Positions 15,682 to 40,713 of a stretch of DNA of 64,000 nucleotides are shown piece after piece. Every line of letters begins with the position of its first letter. Positions within the stretch are counted from its first letter, which is position 1. Under the pieces are notes generated by a model. The model was not told the DNA's origin, did not search any database, and worked only from the letters and a program-made list of their open reading frames with translations. The stretch lies in NCBI RefSeq assembly GCF_023703795.1, contig NZ_CP098520.1, positions 124,001-188,000 of the forward strand, given 5' to 3'. This DNA comes from Haloplanus sp. HW8-1 (lineage in GTDB: Archaea > Halobacteriota > Halobacteria > Halobacteriales > Haloferacaceae). The position numbers and the translations under genes were made by a program.

Positions 15682-15685
15682 GGGT

Positions 15686-17923
15686 TCACATCTCCGCGTC
15701 GTGATCCGGCGTCCGGCCCGCAGTGTCCGACGCGTGGTGCCCGCCGTCAGCCGCGGCCGGCGATCCCGCTCTCGCCTCAGTTGCTCGACCGGTGCCCGAT
15801 CCGGTTTCGAAATCCGACACCTGGTCGTGCAGGTCTTCGGCGAGACCGGACAGTTGCTGGATATTCTCGGAGGCTTCGGACAGGGAAGCGGTCTGTTCTT
15901 CTGTCGCGGCAGAGACGTTGCTCGCCTCGGCTGCAGTCTGCTGACTGACGCTGGAGACCTCGTCGACCATGGAAACCACTTCCTCCGACGAGGCCGCCTG
16001 GTCGTCGGTGGCGTCGCTGATTTCCCGAATTCCGCTTTCGGCCTCTTGCACGGCGTTGGCGATCTCGTCGAACATCTCGATGGCGTCCTCGATCGTGTCA
16101 GACCCGCGTTGCACCTGATCGCTCATCTGCTGCATCCCCTCGACGGTATCCTCCGTCGTCCCCTGGACTTCTTCGATGCGCTGTTCGATGTCGGCAGTCG
16201 CCTCGGCAGCCTCCTCTGCCAGGGATTTGATCTCGTTTGCCACGACCCCGAATCCTTCACCTGCTTCGCCGGCACGGGCGGCCTCGATCGACGCGTTCAA
16301 CGCGAGCATGTTCGTCTGTTCGGCTATCTCAGTGATCATCTCGACCACCTCACCGATCTGGTCCATCTTCTCGTCGAGCGTTTCGACCTGCGTGGCTGCC
16401 TCGTCGGCCCGGGTTTCGATGGACTGGATCTCCTCGGTCGCCTCCGAGGCATACTGCCGCCCCGTCTCGCCACGCTCGACGGCCGTACTGGCAGTCGAAG
16501 TCACCTCTTCGGCCGAGGAAGCGATTTCCTCAACGGTCGCCGACATATCGTTCATTTCGCCGGCCACCTCTTGGAGGTTCTCGCTTTGCGTGTCCGCACC
16601 GCGTGAGATCTCTTCAACGGACTCCGCGACCTGTTCGCTGGCCTGTTCGATCTCCTCCGAACTGCCCGCTACTTCCTCGCTTGACGTCGCGACGTCGTCT
16701 GCGATCGCCTGAACGCGTTCGACGCTCGCATTCAGTTGTTCGATCCCGTCCGCAAGGTCGCTCAACGCAGTTCCAAACGCTCCCGGGTAGTCCGTGTCGA
16801 TGTCCTGGGCGAGCCGTCCGTCTCGCAGTCCCTGACTCGCGGTGGCGATCTCGTCGAAACTTCCCGAGACCGCCCCCATGCCGTCGTCGAAGGCGGTGAG
16901 GATCTCCCCGTAGTTGCCGGCGCGGTCGGTGTCGATGTCCTGCTCGAGATTACCGGTTTTCAGGTTCTGGCTGGCGGTGCGGATCTCTTCGAAACTGCTG
17001 ACCATTTCGGTAGCACCGTCGTCGAGGTTGGTCATGATGTCGCCGTAGGTGCCGGGGAAGTCGGTCCGGCGGTCCCGGGTCTCGAGGGCGTCGTCACCGG
17101 TTGCGAGGTTGGTGCTGAAGGTGTCGATTTCGTCGAAGGCACTGCGGAGATTGGCCTGCATTTGCTGGAATGCATCGCTCATACGGCCGAGTTCGTCGTC
17201 TTCGAGGTGGTCGTCGACTTCGGCGGTGAGGTCGCCTTCACTCATGGCTTGTGAGGCCTCGGAGAGTTGTTTGATCGGGGTGGTGATGCGGCTGGCGACG
17301 AAGAGGCCGATGAGGGTAGCCGCGACGAACGCTCCGACAGTCAGTCCGATAATCGTCATGTGGCTATTGTTCGTCGTCGTCGCCGCCGACGCGACTGACG
17401 CTTCCATTTTCGCGTCGGCGTCTTCCTCGAAGGCCGTGGTGTCTTCGTCGAGTTCAGTGTAGACGCTGTCTAGCTCGTCCATCTGCTGGTTTGCGCGCTC
17501 CTCGTCTCCCGCCTCCATCGCGGCGATGATTTCTTCGCCCTTGGTTTTCGCCTCTTCGTGTTCGGTTTTCATCTCCGAAAGCAACTGCTGTTGCTCCTCG
17601 GTGAGGTCGTCACGTTCTGCCAGCGTCGTGTACCACTCTTCGAAGTCTGCCTGGGAGGCACGGAATTCTTCGGCTGCCTCCATCTCGCCCGTTAACACTT
17701 CGTGCAGTGCCAGCCGCTCCGATTCGAGGTCGTACTTCATTTCCATCGCTGCGTCTGCCTCGGCGACGTCGTCGTGGACGACGGATTCGAGCTGGTTGTC
17801 CACAGTCGTGACACTCGTATATCCGACGAACCCTGTCACGGCCACGAGTACCGCCACGAGCACGAACGCCAGGATGAGCTTCGGCCGCAGGTCGAACCGA
17901 TCGATTGTCACCTTCTCTAGCAT
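15686..17923 (-). CDS. Membrane methyl-accepting transducer with repeated HAMP units
   Basis: 745 residues. TM1 about 14-34 ([20 protein letters not shown]), an extracellular helical region of about 150 residues rich in Glu/Gln (four-helix-bundle type ligand domain), TM2 about 190-212, then HAMP ([20 protein letters not shown]). Three successive cytosolic segments repeat a pattern of FP/AGxYGxI...DDG...SFxEIxTASQxLxxGxLxQDIDTD (about 275-400), consistent with poly-HAMP. The signalling tip is canonical ([20 protein letters not shown]) with Glu/Gln-rich methylation helices on each side. First gene of a transducer-cheW-kinase operon. Confidence 0.94.
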
Positions 17924-25831: not shown

Positions 25832-26356
25832 ATGCCTGGAGGTGAATCGAGCTCCGAGGACCCGATAAAACGCCAACCCACTGGTGAAGACCGGATACGG
25901 ATGGTTGCCCGGCAGGTATCAGAGCCGCGGACAGCGAACTGGATCGCCTCCGAGGCGGACTGGTCACACGGGCCGACCAAGCGCGTCCTCGAACGGCTCG
26001 TCGACGGCGGTATCCTCTACCGTAACGATACCGGGGCCCACACGACATACTTCCCCGATTATCGTCGTCAAGCGATTACGGAGGCCATACGCCTTCGGGA
26101 TAGCGACCACACCGCCGAAGGCCTCACCGAACGGCTCACCGATCTGAAAGCACAAATCAGTGACTGGGAAGACGAATTCGATGTCGAATCACCGAATCAG
26201 CTTCGCGGGACGCTTGTCGACGAAACGCTTGAAGCCGATGAGGAAGACCGACGGCGTGAAATCGCCCGTGAATGGGAACACCTTCAGCGCCGTATCGAGA
26301 TCGTCGGATTCGCCGTTCGTGAGTGGGACTTCCTCGCCCCCACAACAGACCGGTGA
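25832..26356 (+). CDS. DUF7342-type winged-helix regulator
   Basis: 174 residues from ATG 25832; the frame continues upstream to 25754 but composition changes there. A winged-helix region (about 18-75: RMVARQVSEPRTANWIASEA, then GPTKRVLERLVDGGILYRND and a wing THTTYFPDYR-like) is followed by a long amphipathic helical part (about 95-165) ending REWDFLAP. The second half resembles that of the protein at 47529-48041, which has the same layout. The family is probably DNA-binding, dimerising through the coiled coil. Target unknown. Confidence 0.78.
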   Translation: MPGGESSSEDPIKRQPTGEDRIRMVARQVSEPRTANWIASEADWSHGPTKRVLERLVDGGILYRNDTGAHTTYFPDYRRQAITEAIRLRDSDHTAEGLTERLTDLKAQISDWEDEFDVESPNQLRGTLVDETLEADEEDRRREIAREWEHLQRRIEIVGFAVREWDFLAPTTDR

Positions 26357-26563
26357 GGTTCGATCCATATAGGGTACTTATGTCGAAGCCGCACTACGTA
26401 TAATCAATATAAATCAGTGGTCCGTCTTACGGTGACTATGCCGTGTCACGAACGCGTCTCTAACTTGGAGGCAAGTTACACAGATTTCTGACTCGGTGAT
26501 TTCTGTACCAACGTGTTCACACATTGGGGAACAACTAACATCCCGGCCCACGTAGACCCGCGT

Positions 26564-26875
26564 ATGAGCCAAGAATCGCTCGATGATACGATCAAATTCC
26601 GTGCTGGCCCGCTCAAAGAGGCGGCTACTGAGCTGGACTCGGTCCATCTGGGGGGAATCAACGTTAGTGAACTCGCACGCGAGGGACTCACCCAGATGCT
26701 TCGCCGAGCGATGACGGACGACGATAAGATCGCGATTTATGAACGCTATTCGGCTGGTGAGCTCTCCGAAGACGCTGCCCGCGTGCTACTCGGTGATGAG
26801 TTTGATCTGCTCCAGGAAGACATCGATGCCTTCCGTGAGGCTACCGACGACGACACCAGTGACTATCTCGTCTAA
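26564..26875 (+). CDS. Putative antitoxin paired with PIN-like protein
   Basis: 103 residues from ATG 26564. The C-terminal part (IYERYSAGELSEDAARVLLG then DEFDLLQEDIDAFREA) resembles the recurrent helix-turn-helix-like end of UPF0175-type antitoxins. Its stop is immediately followed by the ATG of the next gene (26876), which encodes a PIN-like protein. Upstream, the perfect hexamer inverted repeat AACTTG-GAGG-CAAGTT (26462-26477) could be an autoregulatory operator. Confidence 0.65.
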   Translation: MSQESLDDTIKFRAGPLKEAATELDSVHLGGINVSELAREGLTQMLRRAMTDDDKIAIYERYSAGELSEDAARVLLGDEFDLLQEDIDAFREATDDDTSDYLV

Positions 26876-27481
26876 ATGGCTAGCGCCGACACACGGTATC
26901 CGATCCTCGTCGATACGGACACGCTGATCGCCGTTGCGAATAGCTCCTTGTGGACGCAAATAACGAAACACGTCGGTCTCACGACGACGAACGTCTGCAA
27001 ACAGGAACTACAGCGGCACGTTGAGAACACGCGCGAGACCGCACCAGAGGGAAGTCGTCCATACCGGCTTCATTACGGGAGCCGTACCGCGCTCGATGCG
27101 CTCGAAGATGACGAGAAACCGCTTACCCAAGTGACGAGCGTCCCCCGGCCCCACGGAGCGGACGCCGGCGAGGAATCGCTCCGACAGGAAGTGGTACAGA
27201 ATCCCGAGGCTATCGACTACGTCATTTTGATGGACGCAGCGGGCCGGCGTTCGATTCGCCGCGCTGTCGACGACCAAGCCGAAGATATCCGTGTTGTGAC
27301 ACCGCCGTTTCTGTTCTATATCCTCTACGACAACGAGCTCATTTCGCGGCGTGAGTTCTGCGAAGCGTGCGGCGAGCTGTTAGAACGTGAGGGCTGGACC
27401 GGATACAACGCCGTGAAGGCTGCGTGGGAGGGGATTCCGATTGACTGCAATGATATTCTGGATGACCACTTGCTCCCGTGA
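26876..27481 (+). CDS. PIN-like domain protein
   Basis: 201 residues. It opens with a PIN-type strand and loop (ILVDTDTLIAVANSSLW); a second acid is in CKQELQRHVE (about 43) and later ones in YVILMDAAGRRSIRRAVDDQ (about 123), followed by IRVVTPPFLFYILYDNELIS. This matches the order of PIN catalytic acids, with a long insertion. The start directly abuts the antitoxin-like gene and the stop overlaps the recombinase start by 4 nt (GTGA), so all three are one transcription unit. Likely toxin; nuclease activity is inferred. Confidence 0.7.
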   Translation: MASADTRYPILVDTDTLIAVANSSLWTQITKHVGLTTTNVCKQELQRHVENTRETAPEGSRPYRLHYGSRTALDALEDDEKPLTQVTSVPRPHGADAGEESLRQEVVQNPEAIDYVILMDAAGRRSIRRAVDDQAEDIRVVTPPFLFYILYDNELISRREFCEACGELLEREGWTGYNAVKAAWEGIPIDCNDILDDHLLP

Positions 27482-28743
27482 CGAAACCTATGAATCAGAA
27501 CACCTCATCGACACGCGATGGTTCGACACCGCTCGCGAGTTCCTTCGAGCGCTATCTGCAGGACAAAGGGAAAGGCCGTGGCGGCGACGGCGGGAACTAC
27601 CGACGAAACGCTGGACGGGAACTCGAGCGGTTCGCCGAGTGGGCCGCCGGCGACTGCGGCGCCGACGACTGGACCGGGGTCGTCCCCGACGACGTCGACC
27701 GCGACCCCACCTTCGAGGACCTCGACGAACGCGTCTTCCGCGAGTACGCCCGGCATCTCGCTGGTGACCGTGGCCTCAAGCAGAACACGGTCCAAACCTA
27801 TTATCGCTATATCTCTGCGTGGTGTGGCTGGTGTGTCAACGAGGGATATCTCGAGGCGCATTACGCGCAGCGGGCGAGTGCGATGGCGCCGCTGCCGGAG
27901 GACGACGGCCGCAAGCCTGGAGATCAGCAGGCCTGGACGTCCGAACAGCGCCACGCTCTCACCCGCCACGTCGACGAACGAGCCCGCGACGCCGTCGAGG
28001 CGTACACGACACTTCCGGAGGATACTGCCCCCCTCGACAAGCAGCGAGCGCGCTACGCAGCACTGAAGGCGGCTCGTGACCGGGCACTGGTGTTCGTCCT
28101 CGCGTATACCGCCGTCCGCGTCGGCGAACTCGTCCGGGACCCGAATGATCCGCGCCGACGCGGTGTTCGCTGGGAGGACCTCTCCCTCGACGACGGGAGT
28201 ATGGATGTCTACCGGAAGAAACAGCAGTGGGACGCCGCCAGTCTTCCCGACCCGGTGATCTCGCCGCTCCGGAGCTATCGCCAGCTGATGGACCCACCAA
28301 CGGAGCGCTGGCCGGTGTTTCCGACGTTCGACCAACGGACGCTCGCAGAGCTCGTCCAGGATGAGCTCGCCGACCGAGGGGAACCCCCAGAAGCAATTAC
28401 TGAGCTCCGAGAAGAATACGCTCGCGACCTCCTGCTGGCTCTCGATGAGGACATTCGGCCGCCGTCAATCACGACGGACGGCGCACGGTCGATTCTCCAA
28501 CGACTCTCGGAGGCCGCAGAGATCGACATCGACCATCCGAAACACGACTATCTTGCTCCGCACGGCGGTCGACGTGGGATGGGTGAGGTGCTTGTCCGGG
28601 CGTTCGGGTACACGGTGGCGGCTAGGTATCTCGATAACTCCGAAGAGATGGTTCGAGAGCGGTATTCACATATTGAGGCCGGAGAACTTGGAGATGTGGC
28701 GACAGAAGCACTCGACGAAATCGAACCACGCTCACGGGGCTGA
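27478..28743 (+). CDS. Tyrosine recombinase/integrase (XerD-like)
   Basis: 421 residues from GTG 27478 (ATG at 27487 is an alternative). SAM-like N-terminal core-binding region about 20-140 (SSFERYLQDKGKGRGGDG, QNTVQTYYRYISAWCGWCV). Catalytic domain: first Arg in AYTAVRVGELVRD (about 213), then HGGRRGMGEVL with His and Arg, and the nucleophile in RERYSHIE (Tyr about 402). All residues needed for strand exchange appear present. Co-transcribed with a TA-type pair, suggesting a module that stabilises and excises or integrates an element. No att site was identified in the window. Confidence 0.9.
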   Translation: MTKPMNQNTSSTRDGSTPLASSFERYLQDKGKGRGGDGGNYRRNAGRELERFAEWAAGDCGADDWTGVVPDDVDRDPTFEDLDERVFREYARHLAGDRGLKQNTVQTYYRYISAWCGWCVNEGYLEAHYAQRASAMAPLPEDDGRKPGDQQAWTSEQRHALTRHVDERARDAVEAYTTLPEDTAPLDKQRARYAALKAARDRALVFVLAYTAVRVGELVRDPNDPRRRGVRWEDLSLDDGSMDVYRKKQQWDAASLPDPVISPLRSYRQLMDPPTERWPVFPTFDQRTLAELVQDELADRGEPPEAITELREEYARDLLLALDEDIRPPSITTDGARSILQRLSEAAEIDIDHPKHDYLAPHGGRRGMGEVLVRAFGYTVAARYLDNSEEMVRERYSHIEAGELGDVATEALDEIEPRSRG

Positions 28744-28753
28744 ACGACCGCAG

Positions 28754-29377
28754 TCAGCCATCAGTCTTTGCTCGTCGAGACCCCTCGTAGAGGGCTGGGA
28801 GGCCGAGCGGAAGGGCCAGTATGCCGAACCCGATTAGTGCATACTTGGTTCCGCGTGTTCGCTGTAGTATCAGAATCGTGGCGACAGCGCCGAGAAGAGC
28901 AATTAGGAACGCTGCGTTACTCCAAATGGCGTCGTAGGTCGAACAGTACAGCCAGCAAACGAACGTGTAGGCCGGGGCGTTCCAGGTCGGAGGATGGAGT
29001 TTCGGCCAGAAGAACCGGCAGTACGTGGTCAAGCCCAGCATCGCCAGGGTCGGCAACCCGACGAGCCATACCGCGGCCCCACGGCTCCCGTCGCCGTATC
29101 GCCGGTATCCGGCGAGGAAGAGTGCGGGGAAGCAGAAAACCCACAGCCAGATGCCGATAGTGTAGGTCACCGGCCAGTGTTCGATTCTCGGCTGCTGAAG
29201 CGGGAGTCTCAGCGATGGAGGAAGCGTGGCCCAGGGGAACGATGGGTCCGGGACGGGATTGGTGAACAGAGCGACGAGACAGAGAACTGTCCCAAGTACC
29301 AATCCATAGAGGCCAGCAGTCGTGTACTGCCCTATTCGAACCGGAAGTGATGGTGCTGTGTCTCCCGTGGTGGCCAT
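28754..29377 (-). CDS. Multi-pass membrane protein, unknown
   Basis: 207 residues from ATG 29377; the frame reaches upstream to 29449 but MATTGDTAP is the natural start. About five hydrophobic helices: near 20-40 (AGLYGLVLGTVLCLVALF), 72-92 (YTIGIWLWVFCFPALFLAG), 104-122 (AAVWLVGLPTLAMLGLTTY), 140-170 and 175-195. No recognisable motif. Ends convergently 11 nt from the recombinase gene, with the SHOCT gene 10 nt upstream on the same strand. Confidence 0.7.
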   Translation of the reverse strand: MATTGDTAPSLPVRIGQYTTAGLYGLVLGTVLCLVALFTNPVPDPSFPWATLPPSLRLPLQQPRIEHWPVTYTIGIWLWVFCFPALFLAGYRRYGDGSRGAAVWLVGLPTLAMLGLTTYCRFFWPKLHPPTWNAPAYTFVCWLYCSTYDAIWSNAAFLIALLGAVATILILQRTRGTKYALIGFGILALPLGLPALYEGSRRAKTDG

Positions 29378-29387
29378 GGTTTTCGAG

Positions 29388-29759
29388 TTATGAGTCTCGT
29401 TCGAGTGCCTCTTTCCGTTGTTCGTACTCGTCGTCCGTGAGATCACCACGGGCGTAGGCGAGCCGGAGCTCCTCGAGGGCTTGATCAGTCCCGCTATTAG
29501 AGGTGGTCACTGCGCGATAGATGAGGTACCCTGCGCCGACGATGGCAGCGATGAACAGCAACTGCATCAGTAGTCCGACGAGGACCATCCATCCGGGGAC
29601 TGTTCCGTCACCCCACATATGACCACCCCACATTCCACCCATCATCGGGCCGAATCCCATCATCCCAAATCCCATGAAGAGGACGGGGAGAATGAGCAGG
29701 GCACCAAGGACGACGAGGACGATCGTGACGAGTTGGTTATCGGTTGAAGTAGTTGGCAT
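29388..29759 (-). CDS. SHOCT-domain small membrane protein
   Basis: 123 residues. Two helices (about 9-32 and 60-82) flank a Met/Gly-rich loop (FMGFGMMGFGPMMGGMWGGH). The C-terminal 30 residues are a SHOCT domain (ALEELRLAYARGDLTDDEYE). SHOCT proteins are widespread in haloarchaea; many lie beside copper-handling genes, and a Met/His-rich loop could bind Cu(I). Here a CopB-type ATPase follows within 600 nt on the other strand. Metal binding is inference. Confidence 0.82.
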   Translation of the reverse strand: MPTTSTDNQLVTIVLVVLGALLILPVLFMGFGMMGFGPMMGGMWGGHMWGDGTVPGWMVLVGLLMQLLFIAAIVGAGYLIYRAVTTSNSGTDQALEELRLAYARGDLTDDEYEQRKEALERDS

Positions 29760-29980
29760 AATTATTCCCTGAGAGTGGTCTCGGTTGAATATAGGGTCTC
29801 CTACTTGATGCTCGTTTCTCTTTATAAACCAAGGCTCAGGGGTGCTGATACTTTTGAGATATTGGATCTATTCTACGGATTCCCACTGAAGGAGAGGGTC
29901 AACAGCGGCCGGTCGACGTCGCTGATACGTCAACCGAGTTCTCTACGAAACTCTTTCAGTAGCTCTCCGCTAGTAGAGGT

Positions 29981-30202
29981 ATGTCTACGACCGTCGCAAC
30001 ACCTGATGTGGACGAGACGTGTACGTACTGTGGGTCGCGTATTTTCGATCACGACCCTATCTGTGTTCGCGACTGTGACGACGACTGTGGATCGCCCGAG
30101 TACTTCTGTAATTATGCCTGTCTCTCGACGTATATCGATGAGAACGATCTGACAACGGGGAATGCGTGTGCGTGGTCACCCAACGACGGTGATTGCTGTT
30201 AA
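29981..30202 (+). CDS. Cysteine-rich small zinc/copper-binding protein
   Basis: 73 residues with ten Cys: CTYCGSRIFDH, CVRDCDDDC, FCNYACLSTY and a final CC pair. The spacing C-x2-C ... C-x3-C-x3-C ... C-x3-C is that of a treble-clef or MYM/TRASH-like metal site. It ends 90 nt before the CopB-type ATPase on the same strand, so a role as metal sensor or chaperone in the same response is likely. A TATA-like CTTTATAAACC lies at about 29819-29829, a long way upstream. Confidence 0.75.
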   Translation: MSTTVATPDVDETCTYCGSRIFDHDPICVRDCDDDCGSPEYFCNYACLSTYIDENDLTTGNACAWSPNDGDCC

Positions 30203-30292
30203 TCAGGTTTCTTGCTGTGCTCTCGGTCGGCGCAGGGATATTTCACACTCCGCCGAGTAGGTAGAGGGAGTAACCTGATGTGAGGTCTCACG

Positions 30293-32404
30293 ATGGATTC
30301 TGATTCCCCTCCAAACCACTCGTCTGCCACGCACGAGCACCACGACCACAGCACCGATTCTGGTGAACACGACCATCACCAGGGGGGCCACGGTGGGATG
30401 CACGAAGGCCACGAGCAGATGTTTCGACGTCGGTTCTTCGTCTCCACGCTCCTCTCGATTCCTGTCCTGCTCTACAGCCCGACTCTCCAGGAATGGCTGG
30501 GCTTCACCGTCCCGACGTTTCCCGGCAGCGAGTGGATTAACCCCGTCTTCGCGGTAATCGTCTTCGCATACGGTGGGATTCCGTTCCTCCAGATGGCGGT
30601 GCCGGAGCTGAAAGACCGGGCGCCGGGGATGATGACGCTGATCTCGATGGCGATCAGCGTCGCGTTCGTCTACAGTCTCGCGACCGTGGTCTTCCCGACG
30701 CAGTCGGCGTTCTTCTGGGAGCTCGTCACGTTGATCGACATCATGCTGCTCGGCCACTGGATCGAGATGCGGTCGGTGCGGCGGGCTTCGAGCGCCGTCG
30801 ACGAGTTGGCGAAACTGATGCCGGACACGGCGGAACGACTCACCGATGACGGCGAGACCGAAGAGGTCCCTGTCAGTGAACTCTCCGAGGGCGACCTCGT
30901 GCTCGTCCGGCCGGGCGCGAGCGTGCCCGCCGACGGCGTCGTCGAGGAGGGCGATTCGGACGTCAACGAGTCGATGATCACGGGTGAGTCCAAGCCCGTC
31001 TCGAAGGAGCCTGGCGACGAGGTCATCGGCGGCACAATCAACGGCGACGGCAGTCTCCGCGTCCGTGTTGGCGCAACGGGCGAGGAGACGACGCTCGCGG
31101 GCATCATGCGGCTCGTCGAGGAAGCCCAGCAGAGCAAATCGAAGACCCAGGTGCTGGCCGACCGCGCGGCCGGCTGGCTGTTCTACGTCGCGCTCGGGGC
31201 GGCAGTCGTGACCGCAATCGCGTGGACGGTCGCGGTCTCGTTCGACGCGACGGTCATCGAGCGGGTCGTCACGGTGCTCGTCATCGCCTGCCCACACGCC
31301 CTCGGGCTCGCCATCCCCCTCGTCGTCGCGATCAACACTTCCCTGGCGGCACGGAACGGGATGCTCGTCCGCGACCGCATCGCGATGGAGGACGCACGGA
31401 AGCTGGACGCCATCATCTTCGACAAGACGGGGACGCTCACCGAAGGCGAGCACGGCGTCGTGGATATGGCGACCGTCGAGGGCGTCGACGAGGACGACGC
31501 GCTCGCACTGGCGGCAGCTGTCGAGAGCGACTCCGAACACATGATTGCGCGAGCCATCCGCGAGGCAGCTGCCGAGCGCGATCTCAGCGCCCCTGATGCG
31601 TCCAGCTTCGAGGCAATCAAAGGGCGAGGAGTCCGGGCGAACGTCGATGGAAGCGAGGTGTACGTCGGCGGGCCGAACCTGCTCTCCCAGCTCGATAGCG
31701 AGGTTCCGGGTCACCTCCAGCGGTTCGCTGACGATGCAGGAGAGAACGCACAGACGGTGGTGTATCTCGTTCGTGACGGAGCGTTGATCGCCGCGTTCGC
31801 GATGGCCGACGTGATCCGCGAGGAGAGTTTCCGCGTCGTCGACGCCCTCCACGATCTGGGGATCGAGGTGGCGATGCTGACTGGGGACTCTCAGGACGTC
31901 GCCGACGCCGTCGCAGACGAACTCGGCATCGATACTGTGTTCGCAGAGGTTCTCCCCGAAGACAAAGACGAGAAAGTCCAGGAGCTCCAAGACCAGGGGA
32001 AGCTGGTGGGGATGGTCGGCGACGGCGTGAACGATGCGCCGGCGCTGACGCGAGCCGACGTCGGCATCGCGATCGGGAGCGGCACCGACGTCGCGGTCCA
32101 GTCGGCCGACGTCATCCTCGTCCAGAACAACCCAATGGACGTCGTTCGGCTGGTGAAGCTCAGTAAGGCGAGCTATCGGAAGATGCAGGAGAACATCGTC
32201 TGGGCCGCCGGCTACAACGTGTTCGCGATTCCGCTCGCAGCAGGCGTCTTAGCACCGATCGGGATTCTGCTGTCTCCCGCCGTGGGCGCCCTCCTGATGT
32301 CGCTGAGTACGGTGATCGTCGCGGTCAACGCACAGCTGCTTCGGCGCGTGGACCTGTCCATTCCCGAGCTTCCGAGCGGGACACCCTCGACGGAGGCACA
32401 GTAA
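30293..32404 (+). CDS. copB: CopB-type heavy-metal P1B ATPase
   Basis: 703 residues. The first 45 residues are His/Asp/Gly-rich ([20 protein letters not shown]), a cytosolic metal-binding tail. The transmembrane metal site is CPH ([16 protein letters not shown]), which defines the CopB/P1B-3 group associated with Cu(II), Cu(I) or Ag export. Other signatures: actuator MITGESKPV, phosphorylation [11 protein letters not shown]-domain [10 protein letters not shown] in the HP-equivalent position, and hinge [16 protein letters not shown]. Full length, eight predicted helices. Most likely an exporter giving copper or silver resistance. Confidence 0.95.
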
Positions 32405-32502
32405 TCGTATAGACCTGAAATTTCCAGCAGCGAGGTAGACACCATAGAGTGTGTCCTATGATCCGGACTGGTGTCTCCGCCTATGGAGACGCTCTGACTC
32501 GG

Positions 32503-34368
32503 TCAGTTGGATTGGTTCTCTTCAACTGCTTCACGGACGATCTCGTCCATCTCATCGCGGACAATTTGGCGGATGTCCTCCTCCGAAAATCCACTATCAT
32601 GTCGTTCAACGGCGAGCTGACCACTCAACGTGCGCAGTGCTAATTCAAGAGCTTCGATCTGATCGCTGAATTCAGATAACGTCCCGTGGATTGCGTCTGA
32701 CCCGAATTGGGCATTATCACCAACCTCGATGTCAGCACCACGCTCGTCTAGTATCCGTTTTGCAGGCCTGTCACCAACGATCTCTTCTTCGGGAAGGTCC
32801 GGTGTCACGGATACCGGATGCATCATTCCTGTCAGCTGGATCTCGGAAACTGAGTCTAGATTATCTACCAGGTGCTGCGCCATCTTCTCCTGCTGCTCCT
32901 GTTCACCGTGAATAAGGTACACCTGGGACGGTGAAACTTGGCGAGCGAATTGAAGCAACGTGTTTCGGGCTGCGTGGGCTGAGAGCCCATGATATCGACT
33001 TATCCAGCTTACAGGTACCTTCACACGGGTTCCATCGCCCTCATCTGGTATCCCTCCGTTAAGTCCGTTCGAGGGAAGAGTGACACCAACTCTCTCGAGA
33101 TCTTCCTCTATAGCATCCTCCAATTGACGACCAGGTGTCCCCTCGGCTTGATATCCACAGAGAATTACGCGTGCATCATCGTATCGCTGGCAGAATTCGA
33201 GTAAGTAGGTCGGTGAAAATCCACCCGAGAGCATTCCAGATGGAGCAATAATGATCGGTGTCTCATCAGCTTCGAGCAATTCCTCGCGAGACATCGGCAT
33301 TCGTCTAGCAGCCGACGCCTGATCGAAGAGGAACGGTTGTTGGTCACCCGAATTCACTATGTAATTCCGGATCGATTCGGCTGCGAACTCGGCTCTACAG
33401 TGCTCGTTATACGTGTCTGTAGCGCTTTGCGCCATCCCATCGTAGACTACGTTGAGCTGCTTTCGGTCCTCTTCCGGAAGCGTGTGAATCCGGTTTTTGA
33501 ACATATAGAGCAACTCTTGGGATCGCCCGACCCCGAAGCAGGGGATGAGGACTGGCTTCCCATCGGTAGCTGCGTCGACAGCCTCGTTGTAGATGTCCGT
33601 TCGGGTGTCAGTGGCACTGGTGTGCGAATGGGTGTCTCCGTATGTCGATTCAAGAAAGAGGGCGTCTGCCTGCGGAGGCTCATCGATTTCGGGAAGATGA
33701 TTCGACCGGCCGCCAACATCTCCCGAGAAGACTACCCGTGAGCCGTCTACTGTTAGTGCTAACCAGGCACTACCCAGTAGGTGGGCCGCATTTCCAAATT
33801 CGAAATGGAGCGTTTCGGTATCCTCAATATGTGCGACGTGATCACTGAGGTCTGCCGCCTGGTATCCGCAGGGACGGAATCGGTCGATGACTTTCCTCAG
33901 ATCGGTTTCCGAGTATTGTTGTTCTCTCCCTGGTTTTTGCGTCGCTCGTCGGTGAAGCTTCAGTGAATCTCGGAGTAATGTGTCTGCAAGCGCAGCTGTT
34001 GGCCTCGTTGTAATCACTGGTGCCTGATCAGAGAGGAAGTCGTGACTCTCCAACAGGGGGAGCGAGCCGACGTGGTCGATATGAGCATGGGTGAGAAAAA
34101 CCGCGTCTATCTGTCCCTCATCGAGTCCCCTTAGATCAGGGAATAATCCCCCGTCACCTTGATTCAGTCCGACGTCGACGAGATACGTTCCATTACGCGT
34201 CTCAACCTGATAGCAACTCCGGCCGATCTCCTTTGCTCCCCCACGAGGGATAACCACGAACGGGGATTCGCTGTCAACCGAAATATCGAGATCAATCCCC
34301 CCACCGACTCGTGGGATGTATTCATTTTGCGACCCCTCGTCATCAGATTCTTGAACTGCTTCACTCAT
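32503..34368 (-). CDS. Beta-CASP metallo-beta-lactamase nuclease
   Basis: 621 residues. The MBL core (about 35-240) carries the metal motif THAHIDHVG, then HLLGSAWL and SGDVGG; the beta-CASP insertion follows (about 245-380: LESTYGD, IPCFGVGRSQELLY, DGMAQSATDTYNE), and motif C region YHGLSAHAARNTL and LIHGEQEQ (about 490-520). This is the layout of archaeal RNase J/CPSF-type RNases. The C-terminal 100 residues form a charged helical extension not part of the core. It lacks the KH domains of the housekeeping archaeal CPSF. It overlaps the upstream unknown gene by 4 nt, suggesting a dedicated two-protein system. Confidence 0.9.
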   Translation of the reverse strand: MSEAVQESDDEGSQNEYIPRVGGGIDLDISVDSESPFVVIPRGGAKEIGRSCYQVETRNGTYLVDVGLNQGDGGLFPDLRGLDEGQIDAVFLTHAHIDHVGSLPLLESHDFLSDQAPVITTRPTAALADTLLRDSLKLHRRATQKPGREQQYSETDLRKVIDRFRPCGYQAADLSDHVAHIEDTETLHFEFGNAAHLLGSAWLALTVDGSRVVFSGDVGGRSNHLPEIDEPPQADALFLESTYGDTHSHTSATDTRTDIYNEAVDAATDGKPVLIPCFGVGRSQELLYMFKNRIHTLPEEDRKQLNVVYDGMAQSATDTYNEHCRAEFAAESIRNYIVNSGDQQPFLFDQASAARRMPMSREELLEADETPIIIAPSGMLSGGFSPTYLLEFCQRYDDARVILCGYQAEGTPGRQLEDAIEEDLERVGVTLPSNGLNGGIPDEGDGTRVKVPVSWISRYHGLSAHAARNTLLQFARQVSPSQVYLIHGEQEQQEKMAQHLVDNLDSVSEIQLTGMMHPVSVTPDLPEEEIVGDRPAKRILDERGADIEVGDNAQFGSDAIHGTLSEFSDQIEALELALRTLSGQLAVERHDSGFSEEDIRQIVRDEMDEIVREAVEENQSN

Positions 34369-35261
34369 CGTGACAGTACTTCGTTTGCGTAAAATCGCTC
34401 ACTCGTCTCAGTGCGTCCCTGTAGCTGAATGAACTCGAGGAGATCAGTCTCTGCGAGCTGTGGGAAAAATCGTTCAATTTCGGAGAGTACCGGATCAAGC
34501 GGCCGGTGACTCTCAGATGCCGCAGCAACTTGGTCCAGCATCCAGGCGGCAGGAGTTGCATCAAGTTTGTCTACCCGCTCAGCTTCACCCTCTGTGAAGT
34601 ATTTGTGTCGTCCCGCTGGTTGCTGTGTCTCTCGACTTGACCGAGCCGGTTTAGCCGTTGCTTCAGTGATCTGGATGAGCTGTGGGGGAGATCGCGTTTC
34701 ACCAGGCATTGCAGTATCGAGGGAATCCCGAACTTCGGTTGCAGAGAGACTCCCCTCACGACGGAAATACCCGAGGGTGATGTCCCCCTGGTCGCCGTAC
34801 AATTCTGGTGTGGCGACGGTGTCACCTGTTTGTGGGTCGCTGGTAGTATACCGGGGTGCTATCTCGGCCACACAAAGGTCGGTGAATTGTAACCGATCTG
34901 GATCGACATGTGGTGAGTCCTCGATTTCATCTAACAGCTCAGAGAGCGAATCAACGAATTCGCGTGGCCGCCAGGCCGCTGCATTTCGTGGCGGCCGCTC
35001 TGCAGGATTATCGAAATAGACTGTAGATTGCGGGATGTATGCTCCCTGTGGAATTCGCACGTCTACAGGGTAATCTGGTGTCCTTAGCGACTCGTGTGCC
35101 CGGTCACCACTCGTCGATTTCTGGAGAGCAAATCGAATCATGACCGGGAAGACGGTATTTGGTAAGCGTTCTATCACCGTTCGTGGATCTGACTCATCCA
35201 AAATAACTGCCCCCCGGCTGCTTGTTTCTACAGAACCTGTCTCGGCTCCACTGTCGCTCAT
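34365..35261 (-). CDS. Unknown partner of the beta-CASP nuclease
   Basis: 298 residues from ATG 35261. The frame continues to 35339, but a TATA-like GTTTATC (minus strand, about 35282-35288) lies 24 nt before 35261, as expected for a leaderless mRNA. No catalytic or membrane motif is recognisable; there are short strands such as VFPVMIRFALQKS and VDVRIPQGAYIPQ and a helical C-terminus (DPVLSEIERFFPQLAETDLL). The ATGA overlap with the nuclease gene means coupled translation. A defence or RNA-processing role is suggested only by the partner. Confidence 0.75.
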   Translation of the reverse strand: MSDSGAETGSVETSSRGAVILDESDPRTVIERLPNTVFPVMIRFALQKSTSGDRAHESLRTPDYPVDVRIPQGAYIPQSTVYFDNPAERPPRNAAAWRPREFVDSLSELLDEIEDSPHVDPDRLQFTDLCVAEIAPRYTTSDPQTGDTVATPELYGDQGDITLGYFRREGSLSATEVRDSLDTAMPGETRSPPQLIQITEATAKPARSSRETQQPAGRHKYFTEGEAERVDKLDATPAAWMLDQVAAASESHRPLDPVLSEIERFFPQLAETDLLEFIQLQGRTETSERFYANEVLSR

Positions 35262-35339
35262 AAATCGGTCAAGGGTCCGAGATAAACTAAATGTCCGCAT
35301 AGCAAGGTGAAAGTGGTCACACGATTTAGGGTAGCTCAC

Positions 35340-35552
35340 CGGGATTCTCCGAGTTCTTGATGGCTCGCTGAGGGTCTTCCCCTAGAACAGCCCTTGCTTA
35401 TTCTATATGAATACCTATTTGCTCACATTTAGGAATTCCTATAGTATTTCAATAGTAGCTAAACTGCTTGTACGGATGTCACTATTGTATGGTGAAGATT
35501 TTGGTGACGCTCTCCTCGATGCTACTGGGGTCAACGGTGGGCTTTGATGTCG
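35340..35552. other. AT-rich intergenic gap
   Basis: 213 nt between two minus-strand genes. Notably AT-rich at 35398-35460 (TATTCTATATGAATACC). No gene-like frame; likely the promoter region of the beta-CASP operon plus the 3' region of the ribbon-helix-helix gene. Confidence 0.4.
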
Positions 35553-35948
35553 TTAGGAGTGTGACTCGCCATCCGATGCATTAGGCGAACTCGAGTCCTT
35601 CCATTCGGAAACCCCTCCATCGTAGAAAGTATCGTCACTCGGGAGATCGCCCTCGATCTGGGGGATAATTAGAGTCTGGTCGATCGACTCTCGAAGGAGT
35701 TTCAGCCGCATCGCTTCTTCACGACCGAGAATTGCTTCGACGGTGTCGCCGTCGACACGACCGTCGTAATAGGCCCTGTTCAGGCGCTGGCGGAACTCCT
35801 CGTCGTCGGCGAGGGCGGCGAGTTTGTCCTCCAGAGCGTCAATCAGAAGGCGAGTCCGAGAGATCCCGAGGATTTCACCGACGCTATCAGCACGTTCGAT
35901 GAGGGGCTTCGGGGCGTTGAAATCGACTCGGGTTCTCTCTTCAGTCAT
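35553..35948 (-). CDS. Ribbon-helix-helix regulator (CopG-like)
   Basis: 131 residues from ATG 35948 (the frame extends to 36005). A ribbon-helix-helix signature opens the protein: RTRVDFNAPKPLIERAD, then GISRTRLLIDALEDKL. The middle is acidic and helical and the end is likely disordered. Such proteins bind DNA as dimers and are often antitoxins or plasmid copy/partition regulators. An uncharacterised 91-residue gene lies 85 nt upstream on the same strand and may be the partner. Confidence 0.78.
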   Translation of the reverse strand: MTEERTRVDFNAPKPLIERADSVGEILGISRTRLLIDALEDKLAALADDEEFRQRLNRAYYDGRVDGDTVEAILGREEAMRLKLLRESIDQTLIIPQIEGDLPSDDTFYDGGVSEWKDSSSPNASDGESHS

Positions 35949-36032
35949 CAGGGTAGATGTAGAATCTGCATCTGCATAGTAGCCACGCTGACTAGTCAGT
36001 TGCATCTCCGTAAGCTCGATCTTATCACCGTA

Positions 36033-36308
36033 TCAGGTGAACCACGTGAACTCATCGTCATCGTCGTGCTGTTCGAGGAACTGCTTGGCGTCAGCGACGC
36101 TCGTCAGTTGAATCGTCCCCCGCCCTTTCTCCTGAAGCGGCGCAGTCGGATCGGTGACGAGATCGTCGATCGCGCCGTCGACGACGTCGCCGTCGAAACC
36201 CCCGCACCATCCCTTGATGGTGTCTTTCTGCTTGTGGTGAGACCCCACCACAGGCACCCGTACCATCTTCGCTACCACGGTCAGATGAACAGTTTTCCAG
36301 TCGCTCAT
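36033..36308 (-). CDS. Unknown small protein upstream of RHH gene
   Basis: 91 residues, basic at the start and acidic at the end, no membrane helix. Segments VVAKMVRVPVVGSHHKQKDT and GWCGGFDGDVVDGAIDDLV give one Cys and two adjacent His. I do not recognise a family. It precedes the ribbon-helix-helix gene in the same direction, so a toxin/antitoxin pair is possible but unsupported by any motif. Confidence 0.6.
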   Translation of the reverse strand: MSDWKTVHLTVVAKMVRVPVVGSHHKQKDTIKGWCGGFDGDVVDGAIDDLVTDPTAPLQEKGRGTIQLTSVADAKQFLEQHDDDDEFTWFT

Positions 36309-36689
36309 ACCTGTATCAACTCAGTACTTTATCTAGAACGCGCACGCACATATGTGTTTTGCTGAAACAACACTCTTCTATCTTCGGCAAACAGAGATGA
36401 GTATCTGATATCCACTTCTGATGTTTCAAACAGACGGTTTTGTATTTCTATACTCCAACATCTGGCTATTTTCCGAAACACTTATACCATCCAGTACACT
36501 ACAGTACTGTGTAGACAGAGCCCGACTCACGAATACTGTTACACCAGTATTCGTGAGCTCAGATCAAACAACACCCAAGCTCGGATAGATTCACACCGGT
36601 AATCCCACCGGCCACCGCTAAACCCACCACCTGTATCAACTCGATGTCCGGGGGTGATGGTGTGTCTATCCGCATCCATATCCACACCC
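36309..36689. other. Promoter-containing gap with strong palindromes
   Basis: 381 nt, AT-rich at 36330-36500 (CTTTATCTAG, TTTGTATTTCTATAC). It contains a perfect 13-bp inverted repeat (36526-36557) and, just before it, a partial palindrome around CAGTACACTACAGTACTGTG (36492-36511). Divergent promoters for the 36308 and 36690 genes should lie here. Confidence 0.6.
36526..36557. repeat. Perfect 13-bp inverted repeat, 6-nt spacer
   Basis: Arms CTCACGAATACTG (36526-36538) and CAGTATTCGTGAG (36545-36557) with spacer TTACAC. About 130 nt upstream of the winged-helix gene at 36690 and outside any coding frame. It could be that regulator's operator or a mobile-element end. Confidence 0.85.
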
Positions 36690-37022
36690 ATGGCGACCAA
36701 CCCAGACGTACAATCCGGGGGCGGATCGTTCGCAGAACAGACCGCGCTAACGGAGCTCCTCGGAAATCATCCGAAAGTGAAGATCCTTGCTGTCCTCCTG
36801 AGCGAAGGCCGTGACATCAACGTCAGTCAGATCGCCGAGCAGGCTGGGATGAGTCGCAGCACCGTGTACGACCATATTGAGGATCTTCAGGCGCTGGAGG
36901 TTGTAGAACAGACGCGGAAAATCAGTGGGAGCCCGCTTTACCAGATCAACAAGGACAGCGCTGTCGCTGAACAGCTGCACAAGCTTGAGTGGACGCTGAT
37001 CGATTCCGTTGCCAGTGAGTGA
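36690..37022 (+). CDS. Winged-helix transcription regulator
   Basis: 110 residues from ATG 36690 (the frame opens at 36654). One winged-helix domain: HPKVKILAVLLSEGRDINVS, recognition helix AEQAGMSRSTVYDHIEDLQA, and a wing with KISGSPLYQINKDS. This is the ArsR/HTH-24 style common in haloarchaea. No sensor domain is present, so it may be a simple repressor acting on the palindrome-rich region just upstream. Confidence 0.85.
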   Translation: MATNPDVQSGGGSFAEQTALTELLGNHPKVKILAVLLSEGRDINVSQIAEQAGMSRSTVYDHIEDLQALEVVEQTRKISGSPLYQINKDSAVAEQLHKLEWTLIDSVASE

Positions 37023-37184
37023 ATGGTCGGACGAGTAGCTCAGCGGAGTGTTTCTCCCACACAGTGAGAGCTCTTCTCTTCGGTCCTAACGACCACCCCG
37101 TAGAACTGGGTGATTCAGTTCGATAACGGTTCGTTCTCCCGGCGCGCTTTTGCTGTCTTCGTAATAGTAACAGCGCGGAAACCC

Positions 37185-38541
37185 ACCCCTTCAGGGGTTG
37201 AAGAAAGCGTACACTCTGTGAACCAAATCACCGACTACGACAGAGCTGATTCCCCAATGATCTTGACCTACCGAGCCTACGTATGATGTATGGAGAAGCG
37301 GCGCACTGTCCCAGTGAAGCTCGACGCGGACAGTGCTGACGCTGCGCTTCTTCAAGACACCATAGACGAGTTCCTGTGGGCTGCTAATTACGTGACACGC
37401 CACGCTTTCGAAGGCGAATACGTCACCACCAGCAAGACCACGCTCCACGACGAGACATACGAGGACGTGCGCGGCGAAACCAATCTCCACAGCAACCACG
37501 TCCAGGCCGCTCGCAACAAGGCTGCTGAAGCCTGCAAAAGCGTTGTCGAGAAATGGAAGCAGGGCAAGAAGGCGTCGATGCCACACTTCACTAGCTCCCA
37601 CCTCGTCTACGACCACCGCACTGCCACTTTCCACGAGGAGTATGTGACCCTCGCTACCACGGACGATCGCATCGAAGCCGACTACGTGCTTCCCGACGAG
37701 GATCGTGACACACCGCACTCGGAATATCTCTTTTCAGACGAGTACGAAACGACGGGTGCGGAACTGCACTACCGAGACGGCAGCTGGATGCTTCACATCC
37801 ACTGCAAGACGGACGTGGAGTCTGACACGTCGGTACAGGTGACCGCTGAGAACGGAACGGTTCTCGGTGTTGACCTCGGCGTGGACAATCTTGCTGTCAC
37901 TTCGACGGGGATGTTCTGGGTGGGCGACGAGTTCGACCACTGGCGCAGAGAGTACGAGAAACGGCGTGGTGACTTGCAGGAACACGGGACACGGTGGGCT
38001 CACAAAAACATCCAGTCTGTCGGTCGCAAAGAAGAAGGTCGGTTCAAACAGACGCTCCATCGAATCAGCAACGATCTAGTTTCTGAGGCCCGCAAACACG
38101 GATGTTCGGTGATCGGGTTCGAGGAGCTGACCGACATTCGTGAACGAACCGGCGCGTCGTGGGGCCACAAGTGGGCATTCGACCGTCTCTACGAATACGT
38201 CGAATATAATGCCGCAGAATACGGTATCGACGTAACTCAGGTAGACCCAGAGAACACATCGCGGCGTTGCTCTGAGTGTGGGTTCACTCACCCCGACAAC
38301 CGGGACAGCGAGGACTTCGAGTGCCTGAAGTGTAGCTACGAGAACCACGCCGACTACAACGCCGCCAAAAACATCGGCTTGCGGTATCTCCGCCGGAACC
38401 AAACCGGAGACGGCGGAGGCGCACCCGTAGGCGTGCGCTTGAACAGCGGGACGCTGAACGTGAACGGAGAATACGAGCCTCCTGCCGAGGATTCGGCCAG
38501 AACGGGAGTCTACGCTGAAAACTCACGGCTTTAGCCGTGGG
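37185..38541 (+). mobile_element. IS1341-type (IS200/IS605) element with tnpB only
   Basis: The left subterminal hairpin ACCCC-TTCA-GGGGT (37185-37198) and right hairpin CACGGCT-TT-AGCCGTG (38524-38539) bracket an intact tnpB. No tnpA is present, as in IS1341-type elements, so it can move only with a helper. Exact cleavage ends lie slightly outside these hairpins; they cannot be fixed without an empty site. Confidence 0.85.
37290..38534 (+). CDS. tnpB: TnpB RNA-guided nuclease of IS1341-type element
   Basis: 414 residues. RuvC-like catalytic residues are intact: Asp in [13 protein letters not shown] (about 194), Glu in [15 protein letters not shown] (about 277), and the final Asp in [13 protein letters not shown] (about 356) after a zinc ribbon CSECG...CLKC. 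The N-terminal region contains the usual wedge/REC-type helices. TnpB proteins use an RNA from the element's 3' end to cut DNA next to a short target motif. The right-end hairpin overlaps the end of the gene, where the guide RNA scaffold should be. No tnpA companion here. Confidence 0.93.
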
Positions 38542-38560
38542 TTAGCTTACTGTGTAGTGT
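38300..38560 (+). ncRNA. Predicted reRNA/omegaRNA region of the TnpB element
   Basis: In characterised IS200/IS605 elements the guide RNA overlaps the 3' end of tnpB and runs through the right end into flanking DNA; overlapping sense RNAs from such genes have been reported in Halobacterium. Here the hairpin CACGGCT-TT-AGCCGTG (38524-38539) directly follows the coding region. The RNA borders are estimated; the guide would be read from the flank beginning shortly after 38541. Confidence 0.5.
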
Positions 38561-38928
38561 GGTGGATTCTCGATTACTACGAGTGACAGTTCTTCGGCGT
38601 GAGTCCGGACACTGTTTATTACGGTAGTCTCTCTTATATAACCGATTCACTCCGTTCTTGAGCAGTTTTCCTAGTTCCGATTTCCCCCTGGTTCCGGCGA
38701 TACTGTACAAATAAGACACTAAATCCGGATTTCACAATCGGAATTCGCTCCGCTATTAGACGGTGTTATCTCGATTATGATCGAGTGTGGGACTTCTCCG
38801 CCCCCCAGAGAGTACAAGTTCCATACGGTCCTGTCACTCACTAATGTCGCCCTCCAAGTATCGACGCTCTACAGGACTGTGGCCCAGTTCGGACAAGACG
38901 AGACATCTTGGTCATAGAGGTCGCGCCG
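38561..38928. other. Gap between TnpB element and primase-like gene
   Basis: 368 nt, AT-rich to about 38800, then GC-rich. Frames here are short and not gene-like. It should contain the promoter of the 38929 gene; no repeat was seen. Confidence 0.4.
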
Positions 38929-39885
38929 ATGCCCGGTGAACGCATCCCCGGCTGGGAGACCGTTCCCGAAGCGCTTCGCAAGCGCGAGCAGTGGGTCTGT
39001 TGGCGGGCAGCTGATACTGACGACTCGGTAGACGGGATTTCACTCACACCGATCGATCCGGCGACCGGCGAGCGCGCAACCTTCGATGATGAGACTACGT
39101 GGAGCGGTTTCGAGGATGCATACGCCACGGCGACAGCGTCCGACTTGGATGTCGACGGACTCGCCTTCTATCCCACACGCGATGATCCATTCACTGCTGT
39201 CGAACTCACCGCTTGTCGTGACCCTGAGACTGGTGACCTCGATGACTGGGCCCAGACGGTGATCGAGACGCTTGATTCCTACACTGAAGTTACGTCCGAC
39301 GGCCAGAGTATTCGGATTCTCGTTGCGGGACGGCCACCGAGCTGGACCTTCGGGGCGATCGATATCTGTGATGCGGAGTTCTATATCCCAATCACGGGCG
39401 AGTGGCTGTCGTCGACGCCGGCAACGATCACCGAGCGAACGACGGAACTCCGGGGTGTCTACAAGGCGTGGAAAGGAGCTGCTGACCCATCCGAAGCCGC
39501 GGCCACGCTGTCTGCCGTTGATATCCAGGAATTCGGTGGACTGCCATCAGAGCCCGGTGTCGACGTTGATTTGAGTGACACTACAGTCATCGAACGGGCA
39601 CAGTACGGACCCGCTGGTGACGTCTTCCGGCGGTTATGGACTGGCAGTAGTGTAGGGTATGCGAGTCAAACAGAGGCTGACGTCGCGTTCTGCAGCCAGC
39701 TTGCGTATTGGACTGGTGGTGATGGCGAACAGATGGAACAGCTGGTTCGACAATCGGATCGGCATCGGGCCAGGTGGGTGCGTCTTGTTTCAGAGGATAC
39801 GCTGTACGACGAGCGAACTATCGAACAGGCACTCGAGCTTGTCGACGATTACCACGATCCCCAGTCAGAACCTGGTAGGCTTTGA
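38929..39885 (+). CDS. NrS-1 primase/polymerase-like accessory protein
   Basis: 318 residues from ATG 38929 (a TTG at 38908 in frame is less likely). The opening PEALRKREQWVCWR and the following TPIDPATGERATFDDETTWS, FEDAYATA and LDVDGLAFYPTRDDPF are the hallmarks of haloarchaeal and phage primase-associated proteins related to NrS-1. The C-terminal part (EADVAFCSQLAYWTGGDGEQ, RQSDRHRARW) matches the helix-bundle domain of NrS-1 polymerase. No helicase domain follows, so this is either a stand-alone form or a truncated one. Likely involved in plasmid or phage replication. Confidence 0.75.
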   Translation: MPGERIPGWETVPEALRKREQWVCWRAADTDDSVDGISLTPIDPATGERATFDDETTWSGFEDAYATATASDLDVDGLAFYPTRDDPFTAVELTACRDPETGDLDDWAQTVIETLDSYTEVTSDGQSIRILVAGRPPSWTFGAIDICDAEFYIPITGEWLSSTPATITERTTELRGVYKAWKGAADPSEAAATLSAVDIQEFGGLPSEPGVDVDLSDTTVIERAQYGPAGDVFRRLWTGSSVGYASQTEADVAFCSQLAYWTGGDGEQMEQLVRQSDRHRARWVRLVSEDTLYDERTIEQALELVDDYHDPQSEPGRL

Positions 39886-39950
39886 GAGCTCTCCGGATCC
39901 CGATTCAAAAAGCCGGTAAGATTGTACGTCGCGGCCTTGAGTGACTGAGT

Positions 39951-40409
39951 ATGAAATTCAGCGGTGAGATCCTCGTTGAGCACACACATAGCGAGGTCAA
40001 AACACATTGGCTCGAGCGAGCTGGGCCTCAATTAGTTCTTGATATCGACGATGCCGAACTATTGGATGAAGAAATCGAGAACACGATTGAACAGTACATA
40101 GCAGACACGGGGATACATTACGTGGATGAGTTCGCCAGCGGTGGTGACTGGGTGACCTGCCAATTCGGACGAGTTGAAGTTCCTATCGATAGTTGGCATT
40201 GCAAGATTACAGGTACTAACTGTCCGATCCAAGCAAAAATCGATCTAACCGACAAAGAGCGATTCCTCCATGGATGTAACATAGAAGCCTCTGAGGAGAC
40301 TGTCCAAGCGAAGTATGATCGCAGCCCAGAAGAGTTCAAGGAAGACATTTCGTCTCTCTGGAAGAGTCTTACCCGTCAGTCGATTTCAGTGAGTATGGGC
40401 TTGACTTGA
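39951..40409 (+). CDS. Unknown 152-residue protein
   Basis: No family recognised. Predicted alternating strands at the start (MKFSGEILVEHTHSEVKTHW), two Cys in DSWHCKITGTNCPIQAK, and an acidic helical end. Third positions are AT-richer than its neighbours, a hint of recent acquisition from another host. It follows the primase-like gene by 65 nt on the same strand. Confidence 0.65.
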   Translation: MKFSGEILVEHTHSEVKTHWLERAGPQLVLDIDDAELLDEEIENTIEQYIADTGIHYVDEFASGGDWVTCQFGRVEVPIDSWHCKITGTNCPIQAKIDLTDKERFLHGCNIEASEETVQAKYDRSPEEFKEDISSLWKSLTRQSISVSMGLT

Positions 40410-40713
40410 ATACCTATGATACGGTTGAATATACGTTTGAGCCATAGATCCAACGCAGCAATTTGTGCGATCCGTCAGGGTATATTCTAGTATTTTTACC
40501 ACTCCGGATTTGAACCTCCGTAAATTAGTCCCGATCTGAGAGTGGGCATTTACACAGGTGTTTCAGGACTATTCTGCAGGTTCTGGGTACTGAAACACTC
40601 TCAAACCGGTGGCTCTCACCTCTGTAAATCTCCGCGATTATTAGGGGGTAGTGAGGGTTGGTTATTCTGCGAGAGAGATGTCTAGGTGAGGTATGTTCGG
40701 GAGGTGAGAGGTA
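40410..40713. other. Gap with nested inverted repeats
   Basis: 304 nt without a gene. TGTTTCAG (about 40559-40567) and CTGAAACA (about 40590-40598) are inverted, and outside them ATTTACACAGGTG (about 40549) is matched by CACCTCTGTAAAT (12 of 13 inverted). Such nesting could be an operator or a small structured RNA. A tRNA T-loop-like string on the minus strand near 40505-40520 does not pair as a T-arm. Confidence 0.45.

Follow-up and report, generated by a model that had tools for sequence, protein, structure and literature searches.

The window, by which we mean the whole 64,000-nt stretch of Haloplanus sp. HW8-1 DNA that was analyzed, belongs to a 200-kb contig (G000:C3) in a genome whose chromosome is 3.5 Mb, in agreement with its initial annotation as part of a mobile replicon. 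On its minus strand are two overlapping genes, P2 (35261-34365) and then P1 (34368-32503). The features of the locus are as follows.

32503..34368, minus strand: P1, putative beta-CASP endoribonuclease, 621 aa (open reading frame)
34365..35261, minus strand: P2, partner protein of no recognized family, 298 aa (open reading frame)
34365..34368, minus strand: ATGA overlap, made up of the P2 stop codon TGA and the P1 start codon ATG (from sequence)
35281..35292, minus strand: TATA-like ATTTAGTTTATC, at -31 to -20 relative to the P2 ATG (from sequence)
35301..35315, minus strand: CACTTTCACCTTGCT, UV/DNA-damage promoter element of haloarchaea, situated 54 nt 5' of the P2 start codon
27490..28743, plus strand: tyrosine recombinase/integrase, which abuts P1 in three related loci
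28725..32409, no strand assigned: insertion of about 3.7 kb with small genes and a P-type metal ATPase (by Pfam), in the window copy only (by locus comparison)

The ATGA overlap, already described in the initial annotation as fusing the two genes, is shared by them at 34365-34368 and is kept in 12 loci (the window, L061, L035, L063, L064, L065, L066, L068, L069, L040, L042, and L045); two loci have a 1-nt overlap, TAATG, and the remaining loci have short gaps. This overlap probably represents translational coupling of P2 and P1. An Rfam scan of positions 26000-40500 found no RNA family.

The nuclease P1 and its partner P2

Pfam identified Lactamase_B, Beta-Casp, and RMMBL domains in P1, which together form an MBL/beta-CASP/RMMBL core from about residue 38 to residue 505, and gave no match to a KH domain in this protein. 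All of the expected motifs (MBL motifs 1-4 and beta-CASP motifs A-C) are present in the P1 family, with D65, H94, H96, D98, H99, H196, E240, H465, and H487 invariant in 33/33 members and D217 kept in 32 of them, the remaining member having N. The earlier description of P1 as a full-length beta-CASP enzyme without KH domains is consistent with these results. The beta-CASP members that cut RNA have His at motif C, and the DNA-type enzymes reportedly have Val at this position. We assign P1 to the RNA type because its motif C residue, H487, is His in every family member, not Val. Its closest solved structures, by PDB sequence search and Foldseek, are archaeal CPSF/aCPSF1 and CPSF73, and from its domains, catalytic residues, and motif C we infer that P1 is a CPSF73/aCPSF1-type metal-dependent endoribonuclease. 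P1 also has a C-terminal helical tail that ends in FSEEDIRQIVRDEM and, among the genes called in the loci, is common to family members only; one P1 subclade has an added helix-hairpin-helix domain.

P2 had no match in Pfam, NCBIfam, PADLOC, or PDB sequences, and a Pfam search over 12 P2 homologs likewise gave no match, including none to a protease domain. Searches of PHROGs with 12 P2 members matched two of them, and only at E 0.063, and no P2 relative was found in the phage and viral collections. The protein is nevertheless not a chance open reading frame, because it is conserved beside P1 (36-99% identity across the haloarchaeal homologs that adjoin P1) and is under purifying selection (dN/dS of 0.06-0.10), as is P1. 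Its near-invariant blocks include VYFDNPAERPP and TAKPxR. The structural prediction that had been proposed for P2 produced a poor AlphaFold model (mean pLDDT 49) and no confident fold, and the protein still belongs to no known family, as first described. Foldseek against the PDB returned nothing below E 0.001, with rows for TBP and Cascade at noise level, and the best VIA-align Z score, 3.6, supports no fold assignment. Two candidate identities were rejected by hhalign: Cas7 or Cas5 of type VII systems (probabilities of 0.0 and 0.1 percent, respectively), and a detached KH module (0.5 percent), which survives as a functional analogy only.

Several known systems resemble the pair in part. The best structural match is aCPSF1/FttA (TIGR03675), the archaeal transcription-termination endoribonuclease, which shares its core and catalytic residues with P1. 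However, P1 lacks the KH domains, is neither single-copy nor universal, falls into a separate clade, and has an extra C-terminal tail and an operon partner; its score against the TIGR03675 equivalog was 235.5 bits, with a cut-off of 580.2. Cas14 of type VII CRISPR-Cas (NF045584) resembles P1 in being a beta-CASP RNase that lacks KH domains, is extended at the C terminus, and has partners in its operon, but P1 scored 231 bits against the Cas14 model (cut-off 800) and lies outside the Cas14 clade, and P2 has no similarity to Cas7 or Cas5. An exact-repeat scan of the locus stretches revealed no CRISPR array at the P2-bearing loci. In Haloferax volcanii a beta-CASP complex, RecJ3/4-aRNase J, is needed for survival of DNA damage (PMC10470531) and so provides a precedent for the role that we propose below; it is chromosomal, of the RNase J type, and has RecJ partners, whereas P1 is of the CPSF type (40.9 bits against the RNase J equivalog, cut-off 400) and P2 is not a RecJ protein. 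Lastly, the HamM/CanC-type systems likewise pair an MBL nuclease with a neighboring gene and act in conflict, although their nuclease is a ComEC-like DNase without beta-CASP and their partner is a trypsin-like protease, a domain not found in P2 (PMC12799240). A search of a limited literature collection found no account of the P2-P1 pair, in keeping with its having been called undescribed, and a class name for the P1 lineage may exist in Phung et al. 2013 (aCPSF1 family).

A DNA-damage promoter element upstream of P2

The initial annotation missed the UV/DNA-damage element in the P2 promoter. In Halobacterium, TTTCACTTTCA is situated approximately 50 nt 5' of the UV-B-induced genes radA1, top6B, vng17, and vng280 (Boubriak et al. 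2008, PMC2556686), and the variant TTTTACTTTCA is present at npa, a UV-B-induced transposase gene; the link between element and UV induction there is a correlation, causality not being proven (PMC2556686). P2 has the layout of this haloarchaeal regulon, with a TTTCACTTTCA-type element about 50 nt before its start and ahead of the TATA-like sequence. The regulon members in strain NRC-1 (radA1, top6B, vng17, vng280, and npa) have the same element at about -50, before the TATA, but they are repair genes, genes of unknown function, and a transposase, and no RNase pair is described among them (PMC2556686). A UV hexamer of Sulfolobus, A(N)TTTC, resembles the core of the element, as a parallel only (PMC5817253).

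The pattern CACTTTCACCNNGCT had 56 sites in 40 haloarchaeal genomes, as opposed to 0 for the reversed pattern, and 5 sites (0 reversed) in the genome of the window. The genes behind it, named from their translated N-termini, include top6B, hef, radA, RPA, and Lhr-like and XPD-like helicases. The 2008 study named four genes, and the reach of CACTTTCACCNNGCT is wider (example loci L128, L131, L145, L151, and L173). The element-TATA-ATG layout of P2 matches that of the top6B, hef, and radA promoters of its own genome, and the spacing of the TATA fits leaderless initiation at 35261, which is why we favor this start for P2 and rejected an upstream in-frame ATG at 35300.

Alignment of the P2 upstream regions revealed CACTTTCACC at an equal distance upstream in related loci. 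At -54 the window and L061 have the exact element, L035 and L063 have TTTTACTTTCACT, the npa-type TTTTACTTTCA variant, and L064 and L065 have TTTCACTTCCAC, the variant present in the radA promoter of the genome of the window; L046/L048 have the exact element at -106. With up to two mismatches it was present in 7 of 18 P2 upstream regions (0.03 expected), close relatives being counted separately, and none of 300 shuffled motifs scored as high in these 18 regions. When one locus was taken per lineage, the 11-mer TTTCACTTTCA was found within one mismatch in 3 of 13 representatives (0.02 expected). The upstream regions of P2 in L066, L067, L069/L042/L045/L040, L036, L037, L060, and L092 are without the element, as are most partner-less P1 relatives. 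Since several P2 lineages lack it, damage control would be a property of some lineages only.

A damage promoter would also suit an SNM1/Artemis-like nuclease that processes DNA, not RNA, in repair or plasmid transfer, as would the helix-hairpin-helix domain of one P1 subclade and the divergent ExoVII genes that accompany the pair, along with transfer genes, in L035 and L063. However, the motif C His of all 33 family members is of the RNA type, and the RMMBL domain and CPSF-like fold also argue against such an enzyme, which we consider the least probable of the readings discussed here.

Distribution, evolution, and genomic neighborhood

P2 was found in 15 of 391 Halobacteria genomes, representing 10 genera, and P1 accompanies every occurrence, either as the neighboring gene or at the contig end that faces it. 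Relatives of P1 were present in 38 of 382 Halobacteria genomes from 18 genera, with a patchy and mostly plasmid-borne distribution, although some are chromosomal (e.g., G163:C1, G202:C1, and G190:C1). These counts confirm the co-occurrence of the two genes, which the initial annotation had proposed for examination, and show the pair to be neither universal nor housekeeping. In the tree, the P1 family is a single 33-member clade (support 100/100) on a long stem, separate from aCPSF1, and Cas14 joins another KH-less archaeal beta-CASP lineage apart from this clade. The P2-bearing members of the P1 clade, whose inner branches are weakly resolved, are paraphyletic, since two groups that lack the partner are nested within them. 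The simplest interpretation of this nesting is an ancestral P2-P1 pair with at least two losses of P2, and the persistence of P1 without P2 in two subclades indicates that P2 is not always required.

The genome of the window has a second P2-P1 copy on another plasmid. The two copies are 97% identical, but they look separately acquired as they have different partners in the tree, the window copy grouping with G008 and the second copy with that of Halorientalis litorea. In Natrinema sp. SYSU A 869 (L093 10387-12231), P1 is split into two frames and P2 is only a fragment, representing a decaying copy. In Halococcus morrhuae, insertion-sequence DNA interrupts P2 twice, at a first site with CTTTGCACGTT-type ends and a direct duplication of 9 nt (gaccatttc) and again near residue 263, and the P1 frame is still open (L117 7360-7941, L039 560-1800).

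These cases bear on whether the pair is a toxin-antitoxin system with P1 as the RNase toxin and P2 as the antitoxin, as might be expected of two overlapping genes on a plasmid with the partner first. Both the partner-less P1 lineages, which arose twice, and the open P1 beside the twice-interrupted P2 of H. morrhuae disfavor an obligate antitoxin role, with the caveat that toxicity may have been lost or P1 silenced, possibly by the insertions themselves. In addition, P2 is large, and no operator-like element was seen besides the damage motif. We therefore regard a toxin-antitoxin system as very unlikely, and the toxin-like character originally suggested for the pair is not supported.

The metal segment (28725-32409) is missing from L061, L035, and L063, where the integrase and P1 are adjacent. 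As this insertion occurs in the window copy only, the metal genes are not part of the system, and we rejected a link to metal resistance; the metal context of the pair is recent. The metal and RHH-like neighbors noted in the initial annotation are real, but the setting that they provide is incidental. The integrase was also rejected as a system component, since it adjoins the pair only in the close relatives of the window and is scattered elsewhere; it is local mobile linkage rather than a conserved component. Beside it, at 26564-27481, are two adjacent genes resembling an antitoxin and a PIN-like toxin, the second without a Pfam match, which are also next to the integrase in L061.

From 35315 onward the window matches L061, not L035 or L063. 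In the latter two, which are conjugation-like plasmids, a T4SS-like block is near P2, and genes for the ExoVII large and small subunits are divergent from it (L035 12701-13938, L063 11795-13033). Across the loci, the neighbors serve plasmid replication, partition, or transfer or belong to insertion sequences, with no constant third gene. A plasmid-borne pair with a CPSF/aCPSF1-like nuclease, and with genes for Orc1/Cdc6, ParA, or transfer in its vicinity at many loci, could be a plasmid-specific factor for 3'-end processing or termination that serves plasmid expression, copy number, or transfer. However, the neighbors are not constant, some relatives are chromosomal, and a promoter of the damage type would be unexpected if the pair processed plasmid RNA constitutively, so that such a housekeeping role seems quite unlikely to us.

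A somewhat better candidate, though still an unlikely one, is defense against viruses or plasmids, in which the pair would degrade invader or host RNA during infection and P2 would be the sensor or specificity subunit. The patchy, horizontally shared, and plasmid-borne nature of the pair would fit this role, a damage-responsive promoter would sense viral replication too, and 5 of about 12 P2-bearing loci have defense-type genes within about 6.5 kb (a BrxHII-like helicase, an IIG-like methyltransferase, another helicase, and MkoA-like and PbeA-like genes). However, partner-less control loci likewise have Cas1/Cas4 of a type I-D locus and a methyltransferase, so we make no claim of enrichment. 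The sole PADLOC match for either protein was a weak one to LmuA (E 0.011), and the lack of CRISPR arrays near P2-bearing pairs also counts against defense. In L055, a RadA-like gene adjoins a partner-less P1 gene, and about 4 kb from this P1 gene is a CRISPR array accompanied by type I-D-like Cas1/Cas4-type genes (10990-11979, 14159-15914).

Proposed role of the pair

The damage-type promoter in several lineages gives the pair the appearance of a mobile RNase turned on by DNA damage. Our tentative reading, which we favor while placing it a little short of an even chance, is that P2-P1 is a mobile, DNA-damage-responsive, two-subunit RNase of the CPSF type with a dedicated partner, which cuts RNA during damage. 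The initial annotation is partly supported: an undescribed RNA-directed pair, with an RNA-type beta-CASP enzyme and an unrecognized partner, was indeed found, its toxin-like character is not supported, defense is a lesser possibility, and its metal context is incidental.

The course of events that we infer, from damage induction through complex formation to RNA cutting and its purpose, would be as follows. Transcription would start leaderless at P2, from the promoter with the UV/DNA-damage element, and expression should rise upon DNA damage or fork stalling. The ATGA overlap would couple the synthesis of P2 to that of P1, and P2, as the dedicated partner, would dock on the family-specific flanks of P1. 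It probably replaces the missing N-terminal KH module, either in the choice of RNA or target or in the gating of activity. The RNA that the complex would cut during damage is most likely nascent or host-wide mRNA, and its cleavage may clear transcription off damaged DNA or lower expression while the element and host survive. Plasmids would carry the pair as an optional accessory. The purpose that we favor is RNA cleavage at times of damage for the benefit of both element and host, with repair aid, arrest, or immunity as its possible forms. A bolder version, which we consider doubtful, is that the pair is an archaeal mobile SOS-like effector, a damage-induced CPSF-type RNase complex that includes a new specificity subunit, halts expression upon DNA damage or viral replication, and so protects plasmid and host.

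Beta-CASP enzymes are central to RNA 3'-end formation in archaea and eukaryotes, and type VII CRISPR systems illustrate their recruitment to immunity. P2-P1 would represent another, unrelated recruitment of a beta-CASP enzyme, here to mobile elements and alongside a partner of unknown fold, and several of its lineages appear tied to the poorly understood DNA-damage response of haloarchaea. The pair may offer a way into the targets of the TTTCACTTTCA regulon and into archaeal RNase effectors in the response to damage or infection.

The contig of the window carries a second, plasmid-borne aCPSF1 paralog (G000:C3:28024-29424; L062 9976-11892) that includes the KH region. Its GxxG loop is VIGRRAS, compared to VIGRHGS in the chromosomal protein, and it is possibly a divergent termination factor.
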